From Longimicrobiales bacterium (GTDB lineage Bacteria; Gemmatimonadota; Gemmatimonadetes; Longimicrobiales; Gaopeijiaceae): a DNA stretch of 64,000 bases. The DNA is taken from NCBI GenBank assembly GCA_951813395.1, contig OX638356.1:186001-250000 (forward strand). The letters run 5' to 3'. A model generated the notes under the pieces. That model did no database searches, was not told where the DNA came from, and worked only from the letters and a program-made list of their open reading frames with translations. The position numbers were made by a program, and so were the translations under genes. This document shows, one piece after another, positions 52,078 through 58,720 of the stretch (positions are counted from its first letter, which is position 1; the number at the start of each line of letters is the position of its first letter).

Positions 52078-52232
52078 ACACGCCTCCTATCGTGTCTCTC
52101 AAACTCAGCAACGATTCCAGACTGTTCGCGACTCAGCTTCGTGCGGTACGCCACCGACCCGTCCGCCCTGGCCCCGTGCAGCTGAAAGCTCCGCTTTGCC
52201 AGATCGATCCCGATGACGGTAACCTCTTCCAT
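52065..52232 (-). pseudogene. IS110-family transposase N-terminal remnant
   Basis: A 55-codon frame starts MEEVTVIGIDLAKRSFQLHG and continues ARADGSVAYRTKLSR, the N-terminus of IS110 DEDD transposases including the first catalytic Asp in GIDLAK. After about 40 residues the similarity ends and a stop follows. Its tail contains the AGGAGG and GTG of the propeller gene in another frame. Confidence 0.85.
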
Positions 52233-52273
52233 GCCGAGGTGCCCAGCTCATGCGGCATCCCGGGGCTGTGCGA

Positions 52274-52310
52274 TTGTCTGAGCCGTCATGATAATGTATT
52301 GTCGTTTGTA
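52274..52310 (+). promoter_or_regulatory. Promoter with Fur/Zur-like operator (site 2)
   Basis: TTGTCT, 17 bp, TATTGT forms a promoter. TGATAATGTAT at 52289-52299 begins a 22-bp stretch that matches the 55,112-55,133 site (read on its minus strand) at 16 of 22 positions, including 11 in a row. The -10 lies inside it, so binding would block transcription of the PD40 lipoprotein gene 115 bp downstream. Confidence 0.55.
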
Positions 52311-52424
52311 ATGCGACCTGACCGCGGGCGATCGAGCCTCTCGATTCCCGGGATCAGGGAGGAGATGGCGGAGAGGGCGAGAACGGACCACTGACGTGCT
52401 CTCGCATAGCCGGAAGGAGATCAG

Positions 52425-53642
52425 ATGAGCTTCACCCTCGGTGGGCCGCGCTTGCGGCCAATCTGTGCTTGCCGCGGCCTCGTAGCAGTGCCGCTCCTGA
52501 TGGCGGCGGCGTGCGGAAGCAACGTCGAAGAGGTCTCGGACGTCGTGCTCGCACGACACGTCCACACAGACTTCTATGACGCCTACCCGGGCATCCCGTC
52601 GCCTGCCGGCGATCAAGTCGTATTCGCCGATTATGCCGCGGACAGCAGATCGCTCGCGGTCTACGACGTAGCGACCGGGGTCGGCCGCGTGGTGACGAGG
52701 ACGCCAGCGGGACGGTCGCGGGTGACCTGGTCGCCCGACGGTTCGCGCGTCGTGTACGTCGACCGCTGGCCCGAAAGTCACGGGGTCTGGACCTTGGACC
52801 CGACCACCGGCCAGGAGTCGCGCATCGTGGATCCCGGCGACGCACGCATCGACTATCCGCGATTGCTGCCCGACGGGACCGTGACCGCGCTTCGACACGC
52901 GGGCGCCGATACCGCGTGGGTCGCGTATGCACCGGGGCTCGACGAGGCGACCGTGCTGGTCGACGACGCCGGGGGATGGACGGCACCTGTGCGATCGCCC
53001 GACGGGCGCGCGGTCGCGTACCTTCGCGCCGCGGGCGGACGCGCGGCCCTGGCCATGACGGAGATCGCGACCGGCGAGCCGGATTGGAGTCCGGACGGGC
53101 GGTCGCTCGCCTTCAGCAGTCACGGCCCGCCGCTCGAGGGGAACCCGGGGTCCGTCTACTCGATCGCCGTCGATCCCGCTACAGGCCGCGCGGCCTCCGA
53201 CCCTGTCCGGGTCCCGCTCGACGGGTTCCAGGGCTCTGCCATGGGAGCTCGCTTCTCGCCGGACGGCGCGCGGCTGGCATTCTACGGACGCTCGCGCGAG
53301 GACGGACGCGTCACCGTTTACACAGTGCCGACGGCGGGTGGAACCCCCACCGCTGTTGTCTCTCTTGCCAATGGCGAACCCTACAGCGCGCCCGAGTGGA
53401 GCGCCGACGGGGCGTCGCTCTTCTACTCGCGCAACGACGGCTTCGGGCCCTTCCAGGTGTGGCGGGTGGACATCCTCACCGGCGCGACGGAACAGGTTAC
53501 GACCGGCGTGTTCGGCGCACTCCAGCCGAGCTTGAGCCCCGACGGACGCACGCTCGCGGTTACGATACGCGAGGCTGCCATCGAGGTCGTCGCGCTCGCC
53601 GCCGGGAGCACAGGCGCCGAAGATGGGTCCAGCGGTTGGTGA
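52425..53642 (+). CDS. PD40/TolB-like beta-propeller lipoprotein
   Basis: A 405-residue lipoprotein (lipobox MAAAC, Cys30) with GGAAGGAG seven bases before the ATG. Five or six PD40 repeats are seen: VTWSPDGSRVVYV, PVRSPDGRAVAYL, PDWSPDGRSLAFSS, ARFSPDGARLAFYG, PEWSADGASLFYS and PSLSPDGRTLAVT. A short HVH (45-47) follows the anchor in ARHVHTDFYDAYPG. The Fur/Zur-like promoter suggests a metal-related role; a comparison with the propeller zinc chaperone AztD is speculative. Convergent with the Fur-family gene. Confidence 0.85.
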   Translation: MSFTLGGPRLRPICACRGLVAVPLLMAAACGSNVEEVSDVVLARHVHTDFYDAYPGIPSPAGDQVVFADYAADSRSLAVYDVATGVGRVVTRTPAGRSRVTWSPDGSRVVYVDRWPESHGVWTLDPTTGQESRIVDPGDARIDYPRLLPDGTVTALRHAGADTAWVAYAPGLDEATVLVDDAGGWTAPVRSPDGRAVAYLRAAGGRAALAMTEIATGEPDWSPDGRSLAFSSHGPPLEGNPGSVYSIAVDPATGRAASDPVRVPLDGFQGSAMGARFSPDGARLAFYGRSREDGRVTVYTVPTAGGTPTAVVSLANGEPYSAPEWSADGASLFYSRNDGFGPFQVWRVDILTGATEQVTTGVFGALQPSLSPDGRTLAVTIREAAIEVVALAAGSTGAEDGSSGW

Positions 53643-53695
53643 TGCACGCCGCCGCCCCCCCCCCCTTTTTCGCCCCCTCTCGGAGCGTCCTGCGA

Positions 53696-54070
53696 TCAGG
53701 TGCAGGCCGGGCAACGCCCGAAGAGGATCACTTCGTGGTCATCGACCTCGAAGCCATCCGGAGCCAGATCCTCCACTGCTTCGGGGCAACGGTGGATATC
53801 GAACGCCTTTTCGCAGGCGCGGCACACGAAATGGTGATGGTGAGGCCGAGCCGCCAGTTCGTAACGCATGCCACTCCCAGGGAGTTCCACTTCAGTGAGC
53901 CAACCCTTCTCAGCCAGCATCTTGACGTTTCGGTACACCGTGGCCAGCCCGAGCGTGGGCGCGAGCGCCTGAGCGCGTTCGAGAACGTCGTCTGGTGTCA
54001 GCGGGCCCGCAACGTCGAGGAAGACGGCACGGATGGCCCGTCGCTGCCGGGTGTCTCGTTGGGAGTGCAT
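53696..54070 (-). CDS. Fur-family metalloregulator (Zur-like by context)
   Basis: A 124-residue Fur-family repressor. The winged helix has LTPDDVLERAQALAPTLGLA and TVYRNVKML. The metal-sensing region has HHHHF (His77-80), and the structural zinc site is Cys83-x2-Cys86 and Cys120-x2-Cys123. Fur, Zur and PerR cannot be told apart by sequence alone; neighbours with DUF2796, DUF3299 and MerC point to zinc. It lies 81 bp after merC on the same strand. Confidence 0.92.
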   Translation of the reverse strand: MHSQRDTRQRRAIRAVFLDVAGPLTPDDVLERAQALAPTLGLATVYRNVKMLAEKGWLTEVELPGSGMRYELAARPHHHHFVCRACEKAFDIHRCPEAVEDLAPDGFEVDDHEVILFGRCPACT

Positions 54071-54151
54071 GGTGTCCTTCGTCGGGGGCGAAGCGCCTCG
54101 CGATCATCTAGGACGATAACCCCCGTGGTCTGCATGTCGATACCCCGATCG

Positions 54152-54556
54152 TCAACAGGCCTTGGCACGACAGAGCCGGGCGCTCCACAGCAAGCCTCCG
54201 GCAATCAGAAGGCTCCCCACGGGAGACGTGACGGTTTCCGGAGCAGGCTCGAACCAACCGGCCAGAGAGGCAGCCCAGATGGCGGCCCCTGCGAGAACAA
54301 GCCCGGCAATCGCCCGTCGACGCCGACCCGGCCCGATCGCCAGCATCACGACAGCCAGGAACACCGTCCCACCCCACATCCACCATTCCGCGCCTTCGGC
54401 CAGAACCATGAACGGGGCGACCGTGGCCAGGAGGGGAGTAATGAGACAATGCACGGAACAGGCCGCTGCGACACCGGCCACCCATCCAGAGGCCACTCCA
54501 TCACCCCCGCGCGCGATGGGTACGCCCGGGATGGCCGCAGGGCCTCGGCTCGTCAC
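54152..54556 (-). CDS. MerC-family membrane protein
   Basis: A 134-residue protein with four hydrophobic segments. CSVHCLITPLLATVAPFMVL carries the Cys pair typical of MerC, and the second half reads FLAVVMLAIGPGRRRRAIAG. It starts at a GTG that overlaps the DUF3299 stop as GTGA. MerC was described as a mercuric-ion importer, but many MerC-domain proteins sit in other metal loci; here zinc is more likely. Confidence 0.85.
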   Translation of the reverse strand: MTSRGPAAIPGVPIARGGDGVASGWVAGVAAACSVHCLITPLLATVAPFMVLAEGAEWWMWGGTVFLAVVMLAIGPGRRRRAIAGLVLAGAAIWAASLAGWFEPAPETVTSPVGSLLIAGGLLWSARLCRAKAC

Positions 54557-55077
54557 CACTCGTAGGGCGTGATCGAGTTGCCAGCCATCTTGAAGGACAC
54601 CGATCCGTACTGGTTCGTCGTCTCGTCCACGGTCTGGGTGCCGTGAATCCATACGGGTTCCCAGAAGGAGACCGGCACGCGTTGACCCTTCTCCATCTGG
54701 ACGTAGACCAATTGGTTGGGTGGCGGCGGCGGGGTGTGCACGCAGGCCCCGACGTACGGCACCAGGAGGAACTCCGAGACCTCGCCGGCCCAGTCCTCCA
54801 GGGGGACCATGTATCCGGGCACCTTCACCTCTCGTCCCACGAGCGACTCGAGTTCCTCGGACATCTCGCCGGTGCGGTAATCCAGGGAGGCCAGCAGCTG
54901 CCAACCCACCTCGGCGGAGTCCCGCGGGACACTGGCGGCGCGGATCCTCGCTCCGTCGCTCGGATCCGCCAGGACGGAGCGGGGCCCCGATGTGAGCGCA
55001 AGCCAGCCGCCGATGATGACCAGGGCGAACTGGAGGGGTGTCCAGCGAATCGGGAATCGGCGGGGCGGCTTCGGCAT
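54553..55077 (-). CDS. DUF3299 exported protein
   Basis: A 174-residue protein from the ATG at 55077. A signal anchor (FALVIIGGWLALTSG) is followed by the DUF3299 core: LVGREVKVPGYMVPLED, FLLVPYVGACVHTPPPPPNQ and PVWIHGTQTV. The family is often next to DUF2796 and metal-ABC transporter genes. It is first in a DUF3299-merC-fur operon divergent from the DUF2796 gene, with the operator at 55,112 between them. Confidence 0.88.
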   Translation of the reverse strand: MPKPPRRFPIRWTPLQFALVIIGGWLALTSGPRSVLADPSDGARIRAASVPRDSAEVGWQLLASLDYRTGEMSEELESLVGREVKVPGYMVPLEDWAGEVSEFLLVPYVGACVHTPPPPPNQLVYVQMEKGQRVPVSFWEPVWIHGTQTVDETTNQYGSVSFKMAGNSITPYEW

Positions 55078-55111
55078 GAACGGGACCCTCGTCCTTCGGG
55101 AAACCAACAGA

Positions 55112-55133
55112 TGATAACGCACATACATTATCA
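55112..55133. promoter_or_regulatory. Fur/Zur-like operator (site 1) TGATAA-N10-TTATCA
   Basis: Inverted arms TGATAA and TTATCA with 10 bp between, in the 98-bp gap between DUF3299 and DUF2796. A TATAAT (minus strand, 55133-55138) overlaps its edge. The AT-rich site stands out in GC-rich DNA and matches the pattern of Fur-family boxes. Confidence 0.6.
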
Positions 55134-55175
55134 TTATACACCTGTACGCACGCAACTCCCACCGGTTCCCTTACG

Positions 55176-55793
55176 ATGACCTACCCCACACTCGACCGAC
55201 CCCAGGTCCGCTCCCGTTTCGTCGGGTGCACGATCCCGTGTCTCCTGCTGTTCCTCGCATGCGGCGATTCGCCCTCCCCGCGTCCTCCCCTTGTCGAGGG
55301 CGAACGCCTGGGGACGGCCGGGGCCCACGAACACGGCATCGCTCGACTGGGCCTGGCCGTGGACGGCGCCCGTGTCACGGTCGACCTGCAACTCCCCGCA
55401 GAATCCGTGTTCGGCTTCGAGCACGCCCCCCGCTCGGCGCAGGAGCGGGCCACCGCAGCAGAGGCTCTCGACAGACTCCGAAGCGGTGGCGCGCGTCTCC
55501 TCGCGTTTCCGGAGGGCACGAGCTGTGCGCTGGATTCGGCGGAGGTGCAGGCGCCCGAAGATGTAGAAGACGACCATGCCGGCGAGGACCAGCACACACA
55601 CGAGGACGAGGGCATCCAACACGAAGAAGTACACCTCCTCGCCTCCCTCACCTGTACCCGTGAGCCCATCGGACCGGCGAGCCTTCGGTTCGCGGACCTC
55701 CTGCCCGCCGTGGTGCAGGTGGACCTGACGGTGTTCACCGCGACAGGTGAGGCGGCCGGCCGCGTCGCGCCCGATGCCTCGTTCCGGTTCTGA
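55176..55793 (+). CDS. DUF2796 (ZrgA-like) periplasmic zinc-binding lipoprotein
   Basis: A 205-residue protein. The lipobox is LLLFLAC (Cys29). The DUF2796 pattern shows AHEHGIARLGLAVDG (His51, His53), LQLPAESVFGFEHAPRSAQE (His83) and a C-terminal LRFADLLPAVVQVDLTVFT. A central loop rich in Asp, Glu and His (His134, 140, 142, 149, 153) should bind zinc. ZrgA homologues are Zur-regulated zinc-uptake proteins in Vibrio, usually with an ABC transporter; none is present here. Confidence 0.88.
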   Translation: MTYPTLDRPQVRSRFVGCTIPCLLLFLACGDSPSPRPPLVEGERLGTAGAHEHGIARLGLAVDGARVTVDLQLPAESVFGFEHAPRSAQERATAAEALDRLRSGGARLLAFPEGTSCALDSAEVQAPEDVEDDHAGEDQHTHEDEGIQHEEVHLLASLTCTREPIGPASLRFADLLPAVVQVDLTVFTATGEAAGRVAPDASFRF

Positions 55794-55818
55794 GCTGGCG
55801 AGAAGCTCCCTGAGGCCA

Positions 55819-55839
55819 ACCCTGACGTTACGTGAGGGT
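55819..55839. repeat. Near-copy of the 21-bp palindrome
   Basis: ACCCTGACGT, T, ACGTGAGGGT differs from the 20,791 copy by one base. It lies in the 89-bp gap between the convergent ends of the DUF2796 and lpdA genes, which fits a transcript-end hairpin or dispersed repeat better than a promoter. Confidence 0.6.
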
Positions 55840-57433: not shown

Positions 57434-58720
57434 CTAGCGCCGCTCCGGCACCTCGGACCGGTAGACCTCCCCACCCTTCATCACCCACATCACCCGCTCG
57501 AGCGCGGTAATGTCGTCGAGCGGGTTGCCGGGCACCGCGATGATGTCCGCGTACTTCCCGGCTTCCAGCGAACCCACATCCGCCTCCCAGCCCATGATCA
57601 TCGCCGCGACGCTTGTCGCCGATGTGATCGCGTCCATTTCGCTCTGGCCGATCTCGACCCGGATCTGGAATTCGCGGGCGTTGTGGCCGTGCTCGAAGAC
57701 CCCGGCGTCGGTGGCGAACCCGATCGTCAGTCCGGCCTCCAGGGCGCGGCGGAAGGTGGCGGTGCGATAGCGCATCATCTCGACGGAGCGCTGGATGAGT
57801 GGCTCCGGGATGCCCAGCGCCGCCCCGTCGCGCGGGACGATCACGCCAACGTAGAGCGTGGGGACGAAGAAGGTATGATCGCTTTGCTGAAGCATCGCGA
57901 CCGCCTCGTCGTCCAGCATGGAGCCATGGTCGATTGTCCGGACCCCGGCGCGGATCGCCGCCTTGATCCCCTCGGTCCCGTGCGCGTGAGCGGCGGTGAA
58001 GCGTCCCCAACGGTTCGTTTCCTCGACCGCGACTGCCAGTTCCTCGTCCGAGTACTGCTGCGCCCCGGGCGGCAGCCCCTGCGACAGCACGGCGCCGGTG
58101 GCCAGGATCTTGGTGAAGTCGGCGCCGTTCTTGTGGTTGGTGCGCACGGCCGCCCTCACGGCGTCCACCCCGTCGGCGAGGTTCCGCACGGTGGGCACGT
58201 CCACGTAGATGGAGAACTGGCGCGCGTCGCCGGCACCGCCCGTGGCCGATACGTAGTTGCCGGCCACCTGCATGCGCGGTCCGGGTATCACGCCCGCATC
58301 GATGGCGTCGCGCAGGTCAACGTCGGTGTACGACCAGGTGGGGCCCATGTCGCGCACGGTGGTGAAGCCGGCGCGCAGGGTGGTGAGCGCGTTCGCCGCG
58401 CCGTAGAGTGCCGCCTGGGCCGGGGTGGTCGTGATCAGCACCTCCTCCCAGTGCGTGCCGACCTTGTCGGTAAGGTGCGTGTGCAGGTCGATCAGGCCGG
58501 GGAGGAGGGTGACGTCGCCGAGGTCGACGACGATATCGCCCCCCAGCCTGCTGCCCACCGCAACGATCCGGTCGCCTCCCACGACGACCGCGCCGGGTTC
58601 GATGAGGTTGCCCCTGCCGTCGATCAGGCGCGCGGCGCGGATCAGGATGTGATCCTGGTCCTGGGCCGACGCGGCGACCGGCAGCGCCACGGTTGGCGTA
58701 GGCAGCAGAAGGAAGGCCAC
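57434..58720 (-). CDS. Exported amidohydrolase (imidazolonepropionase-like)
   Basis: A 428-residue metal-dependent hydrolase. A hydrophobic N-terminus (AFLLLPTPTVALPVAASAQ) suggests export, though the GTG start at 58720 leaves no positive n-region. Metal ligands: GLIDLHTHL, a Lys in FTKILATGAVL, HAHGTEG, TIDHGSML and GFATDAGVF. GWEADVGSLEAGKYADIIAV ends the fold. It resembles prolidase/imidazolonepropionase-like secreted amidohydrolases; substrate unknown. It sits inside the pdh operon between pdhC and lpdA. Confidence 0.87.
   Translation of the reverse strand: MAFLLLPTPTVALPVAASAQDQDHILIRAARLIDGRGNLIEPGAVVVGGDRIVAVGSRLGGDIVVDLGDVTLLPGLIDLHTHLTDKVGTHWEEVLITTTPAQAALYGAANALTTLRAGFTTVRDMGPTWSYTDVDLRDAIDAGVIPGPRMQVAGNYVSATGGAGDARQFSIYVDVPTVRNLADGVDAVRAAVRTNHKNGADFTKILATGAVLSQGLPPGAQQYSDEELAVAVEETNRWGRFTAAHAHGTEGIKAAIRAGVRTIDHGSMLDDEAVAMLQQSDHTFFVPTLYVGVIVPRDGAALGIPEPLIQRSVEMMRYRTATFRRALEAGLTIGFATDAGVFEHGHNAREFQIRVEIGQSEMDAITSATSVAAMIMGWEADVGSLEAGKYADIIAVPGNPLDDITALERVMWVMKGGEVYRSEVPERR

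Follow-up and report, generated by a model that had tools for sequence, protein, structure and literature searches.

Clusters in which Zur controls a DUF2796 protein, ZrgA, together with a DUF3299 protein have been described in Vibrio and Pseudomonas. The Vibrio ZrgABCDE system comprises VP_RS01455-01475 in V. parahaemolyticus and zrgABCDE in V. cholerae, and its operon is repressed by Zur and raised in zinc limitation (PMC9817125). The P. aeruginosa cluster PA4063-PA4066 is likewise Zur regulated, and its association of ZrgA, ABC, and DUF3299 proteins has been called invariable (PMC11481552). PA4063 is a zinc-binding protein (PMC8561739) that also binds cobalt, twofold more weakly. The ABC pair, PA4064/65, has been argued to be a MacB-type exporter, of pyochelin, and not an importer (PMC11481552). 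Zur-controlled TonB receptors are known from Caulobacter, Pseudomonas, Acinetobacter, and others (reviewed in PMC6103462). A literature search found no Zur operator or regulon described in Gemmatimonadota and no description of a TonB receptor with a PD40 propeller lipoprotein partner, and gave nothing useful on MerC in Zur regulons.

The locus described here lies in a 64,000-nucleotide window, positions 186001 to 250000 of the single 4.09 Mb contig of a Gemmatimonadota genome, and was compared with its nearest relatives among Gemmatimonadetes records (e.g., JAPOOQ010000135 and APA_bin_39) and BD2-11 clade records. It is a genuine, conserved, and reduced locus, probably of zinc starvation, and is a variant of the ZrgA/Zur kind and not a new kind. 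With Vibrio it has zrgA and the DUF3299 gene (zrgE) in common, but the ABC pair (zrgBC) is absent, the operon includes merC and zur, and the box differs from the reported Vibrio box, TGAGTGTTATATTATAACACCCG. Its ZrgA is PA4063-like and its DUF3299 protein PA4066-like; however, Pseudomonas keeps zrgA, the two ABC genes, and the DUF3299 gene together, whereas here zrgA and the DUF3299 gene are divergent and no ABC pair accompanies them. As in the systems with Zur-controlled TonB receptors, relatives have a TonB receptor and a lipoprotein gene under the box; the differences are that the lipoprotein, a PD40 propeller, is a partner of the receptor in some relatives and that no ortholog of the receptor was found in the window genome.

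Gene content of the locus and of its counterparts

Read from left to right, positions 52287 to 55793 hold a GATAA-type box, the PD40 gene (+), zur (-), merC (-), the DUF3299 gene (-), a second box, and zrgA (+), with zrgA divergent from DUF3299-merC-zur and the PD40 gene convergent to zur. The grouping of a Fur-family protein with ZrgA/DUF2796, DUF3299, and MerC had been proposed in a preliminary description, and all five gene calls, PD40 included, pass their Pfam cut-offs in place. ZrgA (55176-55793, +; PF10986, 115 bits) is a putative lipoprotein with an LFLAC lipobox and a His-rich loop, and its profile matches the solved PA4063 (E 2.4e-19). The DUF3299 protein (54553-55077, -; PF11736, 116 bits), of the zrgE/PA4066 type, matches the solved structure 4hsp (E 1.8e-26). 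Its likely start is the ATG at 55077, so box 1, TGATAACGCACATACATTATCATT (55112-55135), would lie some 35 to 40 nt from each of two divergent start codons, as a candidate operator common to zrgA and DUF3299-merC-zur. The GTG start of the MerC-like membrane protein gene (54152-54559, -) overlaps the DUF3299 stop. A mercury resistance locus might be read from that gene, given its family match (PF03203, 36 bits against a cut-off of 27.6), but merA, merT, merP, and merR are all absent from the cluster genes and MerC accompanies zur and zrgA across the phylum; from this gene context we have set mercury resistance aside as highly improbable. The regulator gene (53696-54070, -) encodes a Fur-family protein, probably Zur (PF01475 FUR, 79 bits), and the PD40 propeller lipoprotein of 405 amino acids is encoded at 52425-53642 (+; PF07676, 73 bits) behind box 2, which is TACAAACGACAATACATTATCATG on the minus strand (52287-52310). 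The far side of box 2 carries an IS110-type transposase N-terminal fragment (52080-52235, -) that reads MEEVTVIGIDLAKRSFQLHGARADGSVAYRTKLS and resembles the transposase open reading frame of a longer copy at L115:8263-8886. Adjoining zrgA on the other side is a pyruvate-dehydrogenase-type operon, with an amidohydrolase-like gene (57434-58720) between its E2 and E3 genes.

Loci of Longimicrobiales and Gemmatimonadales have zrgA divergent from a longer series, namely DUF3299, ABC ATPase, FtsX/MacB permease, DsbA-like protein, merC, and zur. Some outgroup loci also hold a COG0523 GTPase, with the complete set in L149, and two genomes from other genera of the same family (G026 and G027) retain the ABC pair, DsbA, merC, and COG0523. 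Within the window's genus, in which 14 of 22 genomes have zrgA, the ABC pair, DsbA, and COG0523 were not seen at the zrgA locus. No ABC gene occurs within the window cluster, and the genome as a whole lacks ZnuA (PF01297). The earlier suggestion of a reduced zinc system without its ABC transporter is therefore borne out, since outgroup loci hold the ABC pair in place, with zinc itself taken from the gene context. These comparisons support reading the locus as a reduced ZrgABCE/PA4063-4066 cluster, of the kind controlled by Zur. The claim that the usual transporter is missing stands for the locus but not for the genome, in which a related DUF3299-ABC ATPase-FtsX permease trio, its DUF3299 protein a paralog, lies at 3.5565 to 3.559 Mb (L114:9509-11992). 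That trio sits, together with an M28-type peptidase, inside a branched-chain-amino-acid-type ABC operon and is found across the genus; the machine has thus been split and is not simply missing. A search for the transporter elsewhere under the same site had been proposed as a check; the pair at 3.556 Mb has no box. In light of the exporter proposal for PA4064/65, loss of the ABC pair from the locus need not mean loss of an importer.

Two boxes in the genome and their conservation

The two boxes agree at 16 of 22 positions as 22-mers, exactly as first described. Across the two upstream regions, the most similar pair of 22-mers shares 17 positions, and shuffled sequences reach at least 16 in 6 of 100 trials and 17 in 1 of 100, so the 16/22 match, weak alone, is by itself suggestive and no more. 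Independent evidence comes from the relatives' profile and from genome scans. A weight matrix built from zrgA-promoter sites only, with PD40 sites excluded, ranked the PD40 site second in the window at 26.0, and no unrelated place in the 64 kb came above 8.1. A matrix built from relatives only, leaving out sites of the window and of its sister species, scored the window's own pair at 26.0 and 28.9, with 2,000 shuffles of each region peaking at 16.0 and 19.9. The genome-wide scan that had been proposed as a check found exactly two places, at zrgA and PD40: a 19-mer search allowing up to three mismatches across the 4.09 Mb matched boxes 1 and 2 only (reversed control, 0), and profile R2, whose training included the window sites, likewise returned only these two from the whole genome (E 0.019 and 0.098). 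Profile R1, trained without the window sites, gave no match in the genome at E of 1 or below; in the 64-kb window alone its top hit was the PD40 site (12.3 bits, E 0.023), which is positive but not strong by itself. A plain 24-mer search of the genome recovered the zrgA site alone. The sequence TGATAATGTAT occurs at window positions 52289 (+) and 55123 (-) and at one further place, genome position 3488900, which lies within an RND-pump reading frame with the remaining box unmatched and was rejected as chance. Taken together, these sequence comparisons argue strongly that both boxes are genuine. The first description had also placed the second site over the PD40 promoter; the box is indeed upstream of the PD40 gene, but a sigma-70 promoter scan found no match at box 1 or box 2.

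Upstream of zrgA in relatives, the surrounding sequence drifts and TGATAAYGAGAATACACTATCATT is kept. With up to three mismatches it was found in 11 of 59 genomes, one match each, always at zrgA, and the reversed control gave none. In 123 kb of outgroup cluster loci, which were not in the training set, 12 boxes scored 18 bits or more, and the majority of these precede merC/zur, zrgA/DUF3299, or TonB-receptor genes; other Gemmatimonadota DNA (167 kb) and Pseudomonas zrgA loci (624 kb) had none. Absence of the site from orthologous loci had been named as the observation that would speak against a shared operator; the box is conserved there, in relatives and outgroups alike. It stands at zrgA in most relatives, before merC-zur in G018, G012, and G006, and, in roughly twelve genomes of the same genus, before a TonB receptor. 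Other positions were seen in single genomes or pairs: before an FAD oxidoreductase with a Gate-domain (FeoB-like) protein in G008, adjoining a DUF169 protein gene in G009 and G019 (L227:5512-6057 and L224:366-911), and before genes for a siderophore-type TonB receptor, a periplasmic-binding protein, and FecCD in G001 (L225:575-4925). None of the relatives' extra boxes, at merC-zur, TonB receptor, FAD oxidoreductase, or DUF169, appeared in the whole-genome profile search of the window's own genome. In relatives the TonB receptor is also accompanied by an FAD oxidoreductase whose tail is Cys-rich and by a FeoB-like membrane protein with a Gate domain (L036:12162-14395). Three records titled Gammaproteobacteria (L129, L134, and L145) have zrgA loci 71 to 77% identical to those of the window's genus and are probably mislabelled Gemmatimonadota bins.

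The regulator and its predicted signal

The regulator has a Fur-family fold with structural CxxC pairs, and the Cys pairs are kept in all of its orthologs, which are 61 to 74% identical and occur inside zinc-type clusters of outgroups across the phylum. Its matches to solved structures were Nur (3eyy, E 5.6e-15), PerR (5e-14), Fur (6e-14), and Zur (2e-12), an order in which sequence alone does not choose. The regulatory site of Bacillus subtilis PerR uses a His of the N-terminal domain, H37. The aligned place is Pro in the regulator and its orthologs and His in both paralogs of the same genome, and the regulator thus lacks this mark of PerR. Those paralogs, the only other Fur-family proteins of the genome, best match Fur (clearly so, gene at 1.440 Mb) and PerR, which leaves the protein at 53696-54070 as the probable Zur by elimination. 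Zur is also indicated by linkage to zinc genes, with the box recurring throughout Gemmatimonadota at the promoters of zrgA, merC/zur, and TonB receptors. That Nur came just ahead of the others could point to a regulator sensing some metal other than zinc, for example nickel (Nur-like) or manganese (Mur-like); we consider this quite unlikely in view of the zinc-type genes across the phylum and the relation of ZrgA to the zinc-binding PA4063 (PMC8561739).

Iron is only slightly easier to entertain as the signal. The GATAAT hexamers of the box resemble the classic Fur box, and the siderophore-type TonB receptor/FecCD operon behind the box of G001 keeps alive the reading that these are iron boxes, bound by the genome's true Fur or by the 53696-54070 protein acting as an iron regulator. 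Against it, the box tracks zrgA, merC, and zur as well as the COG0523 clusters of outgroups, and a separate clear Fur is encoded at 1.440 Mb. A comparable siderophore-type operon is, moreover, Zur controlled in P. aeruginosa (PMC11481552). We regard the iron reading as improbable, and from gene context we infer that zinc, over iron or nickel, is the signal.

We are dealing quite probably with a reduced zinc-starvation locus controlled by Zur, with both boxes under the Fur-family regulator. When zinc is plentiful, Zur would occupy the boxes at 55112-55135 and 52287-52310 and shut off zrgA, the PD40 lipoprotein gene, and the operon that encodes Zur itself (DUF3299-merC-zur). Under zinc shortage, Zur would be released, and ZrgA, the DUF3299 protein, the MerC-like protein, and the propeller lipoprotein would be made. 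ZrgA would serve as a periplasmic zinc carrier, probably lipid anchored, with the DUF3299 protein as its partner, and the MerC-like protein as an inner-membrane metal carrier. Homologous operons are Zur repressed and zinc responsive in V. parahaemolyticus and P. aeruginosa (PMC9817125, PMC11481552). The ancestral locus would also have held the ZrgBC-type ABC pair, the DsbA-like protein, and, as in some outgroups, the COG0523 chaperone, all since lost from it in the genus.

The PD40 lipoprotein and the TonB receptor

The 405-residue PD40 protein differs from the 611-residue protein of the sister species G004 by a 618-nt in-frame deletion (206 residues) whose ends carry a short near-repeat (AC-GG-GAG), with 97% nucleotide identity to G004 elsewhere. 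The frame of the short form is intact and its lipobox is present. G004 has an identical gene order, an intact PD40 gene, and a box 2 that differs by one base. L144 has a box, a small open reading frame, the TonB receptor gene, and PD40, in that order and convergent with zur-merC-DUF3299, followed by a box and zrgA. In G012 and G006 a single box lies between the divergent PD40 and TonB-receptor genes. Nine other PD40 orthologs lie elsewhere and have no box. The proposal that PD40 belongs to the regulon is therefore supported by these arrangements for the window, G004, L144, G012, and G006, but PD40 is not a fixed member.

The receptor, whose orthologs in relatives are 82 to 93% identical, was not found in the window's own genome, in which the TonB receptors are paralogs at 57 to 64%. 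Those at 2.131, 2.619, and 3.482 Mb were considered as regulon members and rejected as paralogs with no convincing box. A 60-residue remnant of the receptor adjoins zur in G020 (L037:7677-7856) and is a sign of repeated receptor loss. The simplest history would be that PD40 is a partner of the receptor, sharing its operon or promoter under the same box in some relatives, and that the window's lineage lost the receptor and PD40 retained the box.

The same events could have left box 2 as a relic, PD40 having taken over the promoter of the lost receptor and remaining regulated, with the deleted protein functionless and the locus decaying. The 206-residue deletion, the missing receptor ortholog, the IS110 fragment adjoining box 2, and the lack of a box at most PD40 orthologs would all fit. 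The intact frame and lipobox, however, and the persistence of an intact PD40 with the same box in G004 speak against the relic reading, which we hold to be possible but the less probable one. An equally tentative proposal gives PD40 propeller lipoproteins a role, as a new class of partners for TonB-dependent uptake, under Zur control, of zinc or of a zinc carrier, and has ZrgA and DUF3299 able to work without the MacB-type ABC pair from which they are held to be inseparable; both proteins would then carry zinc and not help an exporter.

For the phylum, the locus offers a testable Zur operator and regulon in Gemmatimonadota. It ties little-known proteins to metal starvation, among them the PD40 lipoprotein, MerC, DUF169, and the FAD oxidoreductase with its FeoB-like Gate protein, and, with ZrgA and DUF3299 occurring naturally apart from the ABC pair, it bears on the role of those two proteins.
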